A program made the translations under genes and the position numbers. From Acidobacteriaceae bacterium (GTDB lineage Bacteria; Acidobacteriota; Terriglobia; Terriglobales; Acidobacteriaceae): a DNA stretch of 42,790 bases. Positions 1,713 to 16,641 of the stretch are shown here, one piece after another (positions within the stretch are counted from its first letter, which is position 1; each line of letters opens with the position of its first letter). The notes beneath the pieces were generated by a model. That model was not told the DNA's origin. It saw only the letters and a program-made list of their open reading frames with translations, and searched no databases. Where the stretch lies: positions 35,552 to 78,341 of the forward strand of contig PKXK01000116.1 in the NCBI GenBank assembly GCA_003132325.1. Direction: 5' to 3'.

Positions 1713-1976
1713 TTACGGCCCTCCTTCCGCTGCGAGCATCACGTCGACATAGGCGACAGGGCCGCCGGCAGCAGCGATGATGGAAGCGGGCAGGGCGTTC
1801 GAGTAATAGCCTTGCCGGGCGATCGGCAAGGGCGCGTCGGTCGGGTAGATGCTCCGCACCTGGAGGTGCGCGATCTCTTCGCCCACGATCCGTGCCGGCA
1901 TCCATTGAGGTTCGTAGGTGATCTCCAGCAGCATGCCGTTCCAGTCCATGCGGTGGGTTTCTGTCGTTCGTTTCAT
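1713..1976 (-). CDS. hypothetical accessory protein
   Basis: ORF with AAGGAGA RBS before ATG 1976; structured leader at 2022-2131. Confidence 0.65.
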   Translation of the reverse strand: MKRTTETHRMDWNGMLLEITYEPQWMPARIVGEEIAHLQVRSIYPTDAPLPIARQGYYSNALPASIIAAAGGPVAYVDVMLAAEGGP

Positions 1977-2021
1977 CGCGTTCTCCTTTTCGCTTTCGGT
2001 TTCTCGATACGCACAACACAA

Positions 2022-2131
2022 AGCCGGGCGGACAAGCCGACAGGTCACCCGCGTCTTCGCGGGGGAACAGGCAACCCGGGAGCGCAAGCGAATGGAGCGG
2101 GCGGCCTGTTGACCTGGCGGCGCGCCCGGCT
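2022..2131 (-). ncRNA. conserved structured leader, copy A
   Basis: nested stems AGCCGGGCG/CGCCCGGCT, AGGTCA/TGACCT, ACAGGC/GCCTGT plus hairpin; compensatory changes relative to copy B at 12617-12723. Confidence 0.65.
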
Positions 2132-2231
2132 AGTGTCAGGCGTAATGATCGAGAACCGAAACCCGAGAAAAAGGAGACGCCGATCGCGTGAACGACCGGC
2201 GTCATGAACTTTTGAGTGGACGGTTGCGTGA

Positions 2232-4061
2232 CTACCGCAGGGGTTTTGGCAACCAGCCTGAGCCGGCGATCTGGCGTTCGGCTTCGTTGGCAAGGTCAGC
2301 CTTCTTGAGTTTTTCCCAGGCGGGTGCCGGCGGTTGGCCCTTGGCTTCCTTGATGGCTGCCAGGATTTGCGGCTTGCCGATACGTGTGAAGTAGTTTTGC
2401 GCGGTCGGCGTGAACCACGTTTTCATGTCGAGGCCCACGGCCGCCGCGATCTGGTTCGCGTGAGCGAGACGCGCACTGTCCACGCGGTCTTGCTTTGTCT
2501 GGATCGCGTTCATCGCGCCTGCGGTGCAGAAAGCCAACAGGTCGAGAAGGACGTCCCGGTGCTGGTTGAGGCACCAGTCCCAGAGAGCATCTTCCTGGCC
2601 GGGGAGTTTCTCGCTCCAGGTTTCGCGCGCGGCTTCGATCTGCCCGAGAGCTTTCGATCCCTCGACTTTCCGGAAGGATTGTTGCTCGACGCTGATCTGG
2701 AGGGAGGTATAACCGCTGTGGAAGGTCTTGCACGCCATCGCATGAACGACGGCCGCAAGTGCGATGTCGGGACGCTGCAGCAGCTCGGCGCTGACGGCCG
2801 CAGATTTCTGGGCTGTCAGGTCCTCGATCAGACCAGACGGGAACTCGCTCCGGACTTGATGGTCGCCGCTTTCGGCATCGCCCGTCGCGTCGCCGGATGC
2901 AGGCGTCTTGGACGTACCGCTTTTCTTCGGCATATCCTCGGGCCGCACGAGGCCGCGCACGATCGAGGCCTTGCCGCCATGATCGAGGTGGACGACGACA
3001 CCGGCGATCGCCAGCGTGTCAGCGGGCCAGAAGGGCGCTCGCTCGGCGGTGAGCGTTTCGATGCGCTCGCCGACCTCGTCGAGACGCGCGGGTCTGTCGC
3101 CATCATCGTTCGAATTGAGCCATTGCTCTTCGAGGGCCTCGTATTCGGCTTTGAGCGTTTCAAGCTCCGCCTGTTTCTTGGCGGGCAGGGGCGTCAGCTC
3201 TTCGCGGCGGATGTGGAATTTCGACTTGTCCTGGTAGTCGAATTCAGGGTGGACCTCAACCCATTTCCAGCCTTCCTTCTGGACGGTGTTCGCTGCGCGG
3301 TCGAGCTTTTCGCCGACCAGCCGGTCGAGTAAAGGCACGTCCAGAATGAACACGCCATCGTCGTCCTGGCTGAAGAGGTCGCGGCGCACGGTGCCTCCGG
3401 CTTTTTCGTAAGCCTTCAGTGTGACGTAGCGGACCCGCTTGTCGGTCACCGTGACCTCGTTCTCAGTGAGCGAGTCCCGGATGTCACTGGCGTCGTTGCG
3501 ATCAGGATCGAAGTCCCGCAACACGGCCTCTTGCGCCTCGTGATCGTCGGATACCGCGAAGGCCTGAACCTGTTCAAGGTTCAGCTTTTCCTTGCGGTAG
3601 GCTGCGACGACGACCGGGCTCACGCGCGCGAGCTTCAGACGCTGCTTGACGTAAGTTTCCGTTTTCCCAAAGCGGGCGGCCACGTCTGCGATCGGAGCGC
3701 CATTGTCGATGAGGTGCCGGTAGGCGTCGCATTCGTCCGCGGGGTGCATGTTCTCGCGCACGGTGTTTTCAGCAAGGCTGATCTCCGTAGCTTGGGCGTC
3801 GTTGTCGAGGACCTGGCAGGGCACCTCGAAATCGGCGTCGATTTTGCTGGCCTTCAGCAGGGCTGCGAGCGCCGCGAGCCTGCGGTTGCCGGCGACGACG
3901 GCGAATTTCTTGCCGTCCTTCCGGACCACCAGCGATTGCAGGAGGCCGTGTGCCTCGATGCTGGCGGCCAGTTCGTCAATGCCGCCCTTGTTCTGCGTCT
4001 TGCGGACGTTGCCTTCCCAGGCGGTGAGCTTGTTGAGCGGGATGTTGGTGATGTCAATCAT
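2232..4061 (-). CDS. parB: ParB/RepB/Spo0J family partition protein
   Basis: N-terminal ParB nuclease-like motifs (NVRKTQNKGGIDELAASIEAHGLLQSLVV, VAGNRRLAAL, ENTVRENMHPADE) and HTH (VAARFGKTETYVKQRLKLARVSP). Confidence 0.9.
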   Translation of the reverse strand: MIDITNIPLNKLTAWEGNVRKTQNKGGIDELAASIEAHGLLQSLVVRKDGKKFAVVAGNRRLAALAALLKASKIDADFEVPCQVLDNDAQATEISLAENTVRENMHPADECDAYRHLIDNGAPIADVAARFGKTETYVKQRLKLARVSPVVVAAYRKEKLNLEQVQAFAVSDDHEAQEAVLRDFDPDRNDASDIRDSLTENEVTVTDKRVRYVTLKAYEKAGGTVRRDLFSQDDDGVFILDVPLLDRLVGEKLDRAANTVQKEGWKWVEVHPEFDYQDKSKFHIRREELTPLPAKKQAELETLKAEYEALEEQWLNSNDDGDRPARLDEVGERIETLTAERAPFWPADTLAIAGVVVHLDHGGKASIVRGLVRPEDMPKKSGTSKTPASGDATGDAESGDHQVRSEFPSGLIEDLTAQKSAAVSAELLQRPDIALAAVVHAMACKTFHSGYTSLQISVEQQSFRKVEGSKALGQIEAARETWSEKLPGQEDALWDWCLNQHRDVLLDLLAFCTAGAMNAIQTKQDRVDSARLAHANQIAAAVGLDMKTWFTPTAQNYFTRIGKPQILAAIKEAKGQPPAPAWEKLKKADLANEAERQIAGSGWLPKPLR

Positions 4062-4282: not shown

Positions 4283-4521
4283 TTACGCGCCCTTCCCCTC
4301 GGTTGCTGCGGGCTGCTCGGCAGCGGGAGCAGATTTCGCCTTGGGCGGGAATGCCGCGTAGCGTTTGCCGCCGATCAGGATGGTGAAGCCTTTGCCCTTC
4401 TTGTGGACGAAGGCCGCGCCGGCCGGCTTGCCGTTCTTCTGTCCTTCGCCCTGGTTCTCGAAGATGTAGAAGTCGGGAGCCTGCTTTGCCTTGGTCGTCG
4501 TCGTTTCGGTTGTCGTTGTCA
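4283..4521 (-). CDS. hypothetical small protein (MTTTTETTTTKAKQAPDFYIFENQGEGQKNGK...)
   Basis: ORF with AGGAGAAAG RBS before ATG 4521; style typical of plasmid/ICE accessory genes. Confidence 0.65.
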
Positions 4522-5052
4522 TGGTCTTTCTCCTTTTGAGCAATTACCCTTTCGGGCGTGCCCCTGAACGGCCAGGCGCGGGAGCGGCGTCAACAGGAAA
4601 ATTGGGGGAGACCTTTAGGGGGAACCGAGGCTTCCTGTTTACGCTGGGAGCGAGCGCGTATGGCAAGGGGCTCGAACATGCCCGATGGGTTTTGCTCGGG
4701 AGAAAGCTGACAACACCTAAGCCGGAACCGTGACCACGAAGCATGGTCCTGACAGGACAGCGTTGATCGGGAAACAGGCGGCATGATGAAGAACGCCTCG
4801 TAGCCGGTCGGGCCTCCATCCCATCTAAGCAGGGCGCGAACATTCATCCGGTACGGTGGCGGTAAAAAGCGGCGGCAGTGTTCCCGACTTTGAAAGAAGC
4901 CCGTCTCTGCCGAGCACCATGATGCACGGAGAGAATTAGGCCTCGCGGCGGGCCTCTTCCCGGACAGGCGTGCGGATTGTACGGTATATAAAACTACGGC
5001 GGTCTGCTGGGATTTGGAGAACAGCGCCCTTAAGGGCTGAGAGGAGCATCGC

Positions 5053-15782: not shown

Positions 15783-16463
15783 TCAGAGCAGCCCTCCGGC
15801 TGCCGCTTGGGCCTCGCTCCATCTGAAATCCTGCGGCAGCGCTGCGACGGCCTTGGCCAGGCGTTTGGCAGTTTCCGCCCAGCACTTGCGCGCCTCGTCC
15901 TCGGTACGCCCGTAGTTTTTGATCTGCATCATTAATCCCCAGGGGAGACTTGTGCCCGCAAGAAAGCGCATCCTCTGCAGGACCATCGAAACATCTGCCC
16001 ACCACTTTTCGCACCCGTCGATCGCAGACGCGAGGTGGCAGGCAAGCAGCAGAGCGTTTTCGGGGGCGTCATTCAGACTGGCGTCAGTAAAGATGACATC
16101 GACGTATGATCCCAACAACACCGTTGCGCCTGGCACGGTGGTGGAGGGCGTGAGCGCTTTCTCGCAGCCGACGCTCTCGATCGGCGATCCCAGAGCGTTG
16201 ATGCTGGTAAGGAGCTCTCCGAGGGCGGGAAAGTCCGCGACTTCGGGAATTCGCCGGATCGCCGCAACATCTCGCTTTGTGCGCATGTAGCCGTGGTTCC
16301 GGGCGCCATCCGCATGGTCGACGGGCGGGTAGGGCACAGCCGGCCCCCAGGAATTGTCGATCCAGATACCCCGGCTGCCCTCTCCCCATAACCTGACGAC
16401 CGCCGGGGGCGGTCCCGTCAGGCCTCGATAGGGCTGGAGCAGGGGGAGGACGGCGTCGAACAT
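15783..16463 (-). CDS. hypothetical protein, first gene of the four-gene operon
   Basis: ORF directly abutting downstream gene (TGAGTG junction). Confidence 0.7.
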   Translation of the reverse strand: MFDAVLPLLQPYRGLTGPPPAVVRLWGEGSRGIWIDNSWGPAVPYPPVDHADGARNHGYMRTKRDVAAIRRIPEVADFPALGELLTSINALGSPIESVGCEKALTPSTTVPGATVLLGSYVDVIFTDASLNDAPENALLLACHLASAIDGCEKWWADVSMVLQRMRFLAGTSLPWGLMMQIKNYGRTEDEARKCWAETAKRLAKAVAALPQDFRWSEAQAAAGGLL

Positions 16464-16468
16464 TCTTA

Positions 16469-16494
16469 TGAATGATAACGTCCTTTATCATTCA
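16469..16494. promoter_or_regulatory. perfect inverted repeat TGAATGATAA-CGTCCT-TTATCATTCA
   Basis: 10-bp arms, 6-bp spacer, 5 bp upstream of the ATG at 16463. Confidence 0.75.
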
Positions 16495-16641
16495 CAACAA
16501 GAGGTTCGGCAAGGAAGCGGTCACTTTCCGTAAGAACAGCCATTGAACCAGAACTTGCTTCTTCGGCGGTTGATTGACGGGAAGATTGGTCTGCCTCTTG
16601 ACATTTTTCAAGCAGTTGCTTTAATCTGATATTTCAAGCAG

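Follow-up and report, generated by a model that had tools for sequence, protein, structure and literature searches.

Covarying hairpins of mobile elements that probably act as single-stranded DNA promoters of the leading region

The 42,790-nucleotide stretch of Acidobacteriaceae DNA analysed here (the window) carries the same hairpin element twice. Judged from sequence, copies A and B are very probably leading-region single-stranded DNA (ssDNA) promoters of an integrated mobilizable element, resembling in their action the Frpo promoters of the F plasmid. The features that support this reading are the hairpin itself, the covariation of its stems, the strand on which it folds, its co-orientation with the relaxase, a conserved −35-like sequence with its spacing, a fixed leader length and the variety of the genes that follow. 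Coordinates are collected in Table 1.

An earlier note on this DNA had described the two copies as a covarying, structured leader RNA, and both copies, with the stems that it quoted, were found at the positions it gave. Specifically, the outer stem of A joins AGCCGGGCG (2022-2030) to CGCCCGGCT (2123-2131), and that of B joins AGCCGCGCG (12617-12625) to CGCGCGGCT (12715-12723). The copies align with 85% identity and their stem substitutions are paired, which bears out the compensatory changes that had been noted between them; the distance from the end of the hairpin to the ATG, previously put at 40-46 nt, is 45 nt for A and 40 nt for B. The window contains exactly two occurrences of the conserved core (expected 0), and a search allowing up to three mismatches gave no further site in the 5.3-Mb genome beyond A and B. 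Both copies fold better than nearly all shuffled sequences (z −3.5 to −4.7), and they do so on either strand, so the energy of these two copies alone cannot decide which strand is the relevant one.

Approximately 35 relatives of A and B were found, and the plasmids and mobile elements that carry them belong to several phyla. BLAST searches with the copies and the core yielded credible copies in about 24 plasmid records, chiefly from alphaproteobacteria (roseobacters, rhizobia, Xanthobacter, Ancylobacter and Methylorubrum) with Variovorax besides; a pattern scan of species genomes added copies from Verrucomicrobiota, Planctomycetota and Nitrosomonas, a further two loci came from searches among relatives of the window, and another two from viral contigs. 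When all relatives were aligned with MAFFT, the 5′ arm was placed wrongly, and the covariance model was instead built from a subset that aligned well; it recovered the known relatives plus some further copies. When 400 class-level genomes and the 200 nearest ones were scanned with the pattern, few extra copies emerged, as expected of a mobile element. After removal of chance matches the set comprised 34 elements in 21 clusters (families). Among the rejected candidates were an Actinomyces locus with a core-like stretch but no arms (L005), viral-contig matches to a relaxed pattern that lacked matching arms (L042-L055), and a palindrome on contig C192 of the window's genome, a near-perfect inverted repeat without the core. 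The last of these (L074, G000:C192:20817-20916) is a palindrome of roughly 100 bp on ACGTAGGGACAGCCGCCC that matches the model weakly and is a different element. Within the set, L072 (G069:C17:160406-160553) stands out by an insertion that interrupts its apical core and by having the best −10 of all elements.

Covariation in the relatives, a check that the earlier note had proposed, was overwhelming, with 192 double-changed cells against 65 ± 6 after shuffling. When 25 sequences were aligned under the guidance of the model, 90.8% of cells were paired and the covariation score was 0.435, compared with at most 0.081 when pairing partners were slid. Since an alignment of this kind is biased towards its own structure, a model-free arm-swap test was added, in which the elements' own arms reached a mean of 44.7, the best permutation with arms swapped between families reached 37.7, and none of 20,000 permutations attained the mean of the own arms. 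The apical core is much more conserved than the stems.

With respect to the strand that folds, the wobble pairs are informative. On the strand opposite the gene, in-helix wobbles numbered 18 G·T and 2 A·C across the 21 families, and 29 G·T and 3 A·C across all 34 elements, whereas swapped-arm controls gave 232 G·T to 263 A·C (Fisher p 1.2e-4 for families and 6e-7 for elements); the two wobble types were given equal scores in this test. A gene-sense RNA would give the reverse bias, and the excess of G·T therefore identifies the folding strand as the one antisense to the gene. Folding energies agreed: with DNA parameters the strand opposite the gene was the more stable in all 21 families (p 1e-6), and with RNA parameters in 18 of them. 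Part of this energy difference may stem from the conserved loop, and the wobble test is the cleaner of the two. Taken together, the wobble pattern and the folding energies show that selection acts on the strand opposite the gene, and they speak against the earlier proposal of an RNA structure, or leader RNA, on the gene strand.

Table 1. Coordinates of the hairpin copies, their promoter-like parts and neighbouring features in the window
Feature	Position	Strand	Remarks
Gene proposed to be controlled by A, 87-aa protein	1713..1976	-	no Pfam match; AGGAG Shine-Dalgarno sequence at 1987-1983
Copy A, whole hairpin	2012..2140	+	folding strand, antisense to gene; most likely T-strand
A, 5′ arm (template arm of proposed promoter)	2022..2072	+	asymmetric GACAA bulge at 2031-2035; extra small hairpin at 2048-2063
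A, apical loop with nearly invariant core CGGGAGCG-N1-2-AGCGAAtGGAGCGGG	2073..2102 (core proper 2077-2101)	+	kept in ~34 relatives from several phyla
A, −35-like TTGACC in 3′ (non-template) arm	2109..2114	+	TTG(A/C) equally far from core in 18/21 families
A, −10-like TAGTGT after 16-nt spacer	2131..2136	+	at hairpin base, opposite mismatched/extra A-rich template bases; hexamer 3/6
Terminator-like hairpin between ParB-like gene and A	2176..2203	-	1 found, 0.6 expected in shuffles
Gene upstream of A, ParB-like	2232..4061	-	
Candidate third element C, different apical loop	4545..4690	+	upstream of 86-aa ORF 4283-4543 (-) and ParB-like gene
75-aa ORF, next after DUF2958 in the unit proposed to be driven by B	11984..12211	-	no Pfam match
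Gene proposed to be controlled by B, DUF2958	12220..12576	-	PF11171, E 6e-42
Copy B, whole hairpin	12607..12732	+	folding strand
B, apical loop with conserved core	12665..12694 (core 12669-12693)	+	
B, −35-like TTGACC	12701..12706	+	
B, −10-like TACGGT after 16-nt spacer	12723..12728	+	over mismatch bubble

Read 5′ to 3′, the folding strand presents the antisense of the gene, the 5′ arm, the apical core, the 3′ arm with the −35-like sequence, a spacer and, at the base of the hairpin, the −10-like sequence. The core, with the full pattern CGGGAGCG-N1-2-AGCGAA-N-GGAGCGGG, spans approximately 25 nt and is nearly invariant. In 18 of the 21 families TTG(A/C) follows 7-8 nt past it, and the remaining three have GGGAC or TGGAT in place of TTGAC; the first T of TTGAC is retained though its partner varies or is absent, such that this base is often unpaired. 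At the hairpin base, 15-17 nt after TTG(A/C), stands Y-A...(T/C), and the −10 hexamers are poor across families, often matching at two or three of six positions, with L072 (TTGATT-N16-TATGAT) at the better end. The 5′ (template) arm recurrently carries an A-rich 4-nt bulge opposite spacer position +12/+13 and 3-5 extra bases opposite the −10. The promoter-like hexamers point out of the hairpin base, so that the template runs on into the gene; in double-stranded DNA the same hexamers would face away from it. From the core to the start codon there are about 64-117 nt in nearly all cases, usually with a Shine-Dalgarno sequence. No consensus sigma-70 promoter was found on the gene strand upstream of A or of B, and gene-sense read-through into A is predicted to be discouraged by the terminator-like hairpin that reads from 2203 to 2176 on the minus strand.

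The position of the copies relative to the transfer genes is equally regular. On the contig to the left of the window, the minus strand encodes a MobA/VirD2-type relaxase (PF03432) and a type IV secretion system coupling protein (PF02534), and ParA and a Rep3-type initiator are also found there; dnaX- and recR-like sequences in the list of open reading frames still further left suggest that the element is integrated, and a tyrosine recombinase lies within the window (14047-15027). The genes following A and B are on the relaxase strand and upstream of the relaxase. The same arrangement, in which the gene behind the element shares the strand of the relaxase and lies upstream of it (on the leading-region side), holds in 10 of 10 lineages and in all 17 replicons with a locatable relaxase; the element-relaxase distances toward the leading side range from approximately 0.6 to 22 kb. 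Besides the window, the co-oriented lineages include Xanthobacter, Ancylobacter (two copies), Peteryoungia (two), Rhizobium CB3171, Rhizobium X9 and ZX09, Methylorubrum, Mesorhizobium 131-2-5 (two copies), roseobacter MOBP plasmids and a Planctomycetota contig. Where a replicon has several copies all face one way, and some copies lie on contigs in which no relaxase was detected. According to published work, relaxase genes usually belong to the lagging region, and the anti-defence genes of the leading region are found exclusively on the T-strand, the transferred strand (PMC11541004). By these rules and the co-orientation with the relaxase, the folding strand (plus in the window) is most likely the T-strand.

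The genes behind the elements are mutually unrelated, comprising ArdC (PF08401 and PF18818), an N6/N4 DNA methylase, DUF2958, DUF3768 and DUF6876 proteins and several small proteins without a family, and this variety leaves a gene-specific leader unsupported. The company of ArdC, DNA methylase and ParB-like genes is typical of a leading region; the ArdC of R388 is required in the recipient and counters HsdRMS restriction (PMC7213743).

These observations bear on the other roles that such a hairpin might have. A gene-sense cis-regulatory RNA leader (attenuator, riboswitch or thermosensor), as the earlier note proposed, would account for the covariation of the stems and for the presence of a conserved loop 40-46 nt ahead of start codons, and A and B also fold well on the sense strand. 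Nonetheless, we regard it as very improbable: G·T wobbles are tolerated on the opposite strand and not on the sense strand, folding energies point the same way, many unrelated genes lie downstream, a consensus promoter is missing ahead of the element while a terminator-like hairpin stands just upstream of A, and the co-orientation with the relaxase would be left unexplained. The suggestion of a new cis-regulatory motif on mobile elements thus holds insofar as the element is structured, covarying, unfamiliar and placed upstream of accessory genes, and it fails where it supposed a gene-sense RNA leader. No family of Rfam 15 matches A or B at curated thresholds, the best sub-threshold match for B (Pyrobac-1, 22 bits against a cutoff of 40) being at chance level, and our literature search found no published description of the hairpin family.

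The same T-strand hairpin evidence, namely the wobbles and folding, would also suit an ssi/sso site whose main task is the priming of complementary-strand synthesis on the incoming T-strand, by RNA polymerase or primase, and not gene expression. Frpo is indeed able to prime DNA synthesis in vitro, and the name ssi has also been used for sequences of the Frpo type (PMC7690428); however, priming alone needs neither a position directly before start codons, nor a short leader, nor several copies per replicon, and we consider this role unlikely. A binding site for a partition, replication or relaxase accessory protein encoded by the element itself, with the apical core as the part that is read, would fit the much stronger conservation of the core than of the stems in different phyla and types of replicon. 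That core is common, however, to replicons with differing Rep, Par and Mob functions (RepC with a MOBP relaxase, RepA/Rep3 with MobQ), so no common element-encoded partner is evident and such a site seems highly unlikely, although protein binding at the core could coexist with a promoter role.

For the ssDNA promoter, we infer use by RNA polymerase, the start site, the timing and the identity of the T-strand from the arrangement described above. During conjugation, the T-strand (here plus) would arrive in the recipient as ssDNA and fold into the hairpin, the stem of which would rebuild a duplex −35 (TTGAC) and a partly melted −10. Host RNA polymerase would then start at the hairpin base and read the single-stranded template into the gene, expressing the 87-aa protein from A and the DUF2958 unit from B; in the relatives, ArdC and DNA methylases made in this way would help before restriction acts. 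Conversion to double-stranded DNA would remove the hairpin and leave the hexamers facing away from the gene, such that expression would be a pulse.

A plain RNA-polymerase promoter does not explain the nearly invariant apical loop. One tentative and rather doubtful explanation is that the loop, which lies shortly before the −35 at the place where activators or the alpha-CTD act, folds into a DNA aptamer, perhaps of a non-B purine type like GGGAGCG/AGCGA structures, and would thereby attract a conserved host factor, for instance RNA polymerase itself. The apical core shares GGGAGCG, AGCGA and GGAGCG tracts with GGGAGCG-repeat and AGCGA-quadruplex folds (PMC4275592, PMC5442326). It has only one strict AGCGA tract, however, and the resemblance is one of sequence only. 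If true, the aptamer would constitute an activator made of ssDNA that functions across bacterial phyla.

Frpo1 and Frpo2 of the F plasmid are known ssDNA promoters (Masai & Arai 1997; PMC9849209; PMC7690428), and their use on entry into the recipient has been shown in vivo (PMC9849209). As proposed for A and B, they are stem-loops of the leading-region T-strand in which −35 and −10 are rebuilt in the stem, with the −35 in the 3′ arm and the promoter directed outward past the base of the hairpin into a gene oriented toward oriT; they too occur in several copies per plasmid, in the company of methylase, antirestriction and ParB-like genes. The F leading region encodes methylase, antirestriction, SSB, ParB-like and PsiB proteins, all toward oriT, and the F hairpins, folded in the same analysis, had the same topology and likewise an imperfect −35 and a non-canonical −10. 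The covariance model (R1) gave no match in the F leading region up to E 5, and sequence similarity was not detectable. Whereas the F Frpo has an AT-rich apical stem, a leader of approximately 120 nt and few copies, in the A/B family the stem is GC-rich, the loop is purine-rich and nearly invariant, the leader measures 20-50 nt and the distribution extends over several phyla.

The Frpo′ and Frpo* candidates of anti-defence islands (Samuel et al. 2024, PMC11541004) embody the same idea of T-strand ssDNA promoters driving anti-defence genes. They were identified with five known Frpo/ssi sequences as BLAST queries and with a consensus scan of selected islands (PMC11541004), and their overlap with the A/B family is unlikely. 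RNA-polymerase-dependent sso/ssi sites are similar in that folded ssDNA is recognised on one strand only, and differ in that elements of the A/B type stand just before the start codons of many unrelated genes. The Frpo principle is thus already known, and what appears to be new is the sequence family.

In the literature that we found, the ssDNA promoters described are chiefly those of F and ColIb-type plasmids of enterobacteria, together with homologues and candidates derived from them. If the reading of A and B as ssDNA promoters is correct, early expression from ssDNA would be a general strategy, represented by a sequence-unrelated, GC-rich family that occurs on MOBP/MOBQ plasmids and integrated elements in alpha- and betaproteobacteria, in Verrucomicrobiota and Planctomycetota, and in the lineage of the window itself. 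The conserved loop would then provide a handle for finding early-expressed, probably anti-defence genes in phyla whose leading regions are unmapped, among them DUF2958, DUF3768, DUF6876 and small proteins without assigned function.

A hairpin-energy scan for other promoters produced candidates but no clear class except element C, which is oriented as A and B are, has one relative, on the Sphingopyxis plasmid pSREG01, and is possibly a second class of ssDNA promoter. On a Roseivivax plasmid (L036), strong T-strand hairpins without the core lie upstream of accessory genes at 2090-2310 and at 16400-16620 (minus strand), and one of them precedes the plasmid's DUF2958 unit; from these coreless hairpins, more hairpin classes may exist. 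Elsewhere in the window, a Group I intron (RF00028, 53.6 bits) at 37967-38170 on the minus strand apparently splits a tRNA-Leu(UAA) gene, with flanking halves GCGGGCGTGGCG...GGACTT and AAGAAAATCC...CCGCCCGCACCA, and is adjoined by a recombinase-like ORF at 38219-39442.
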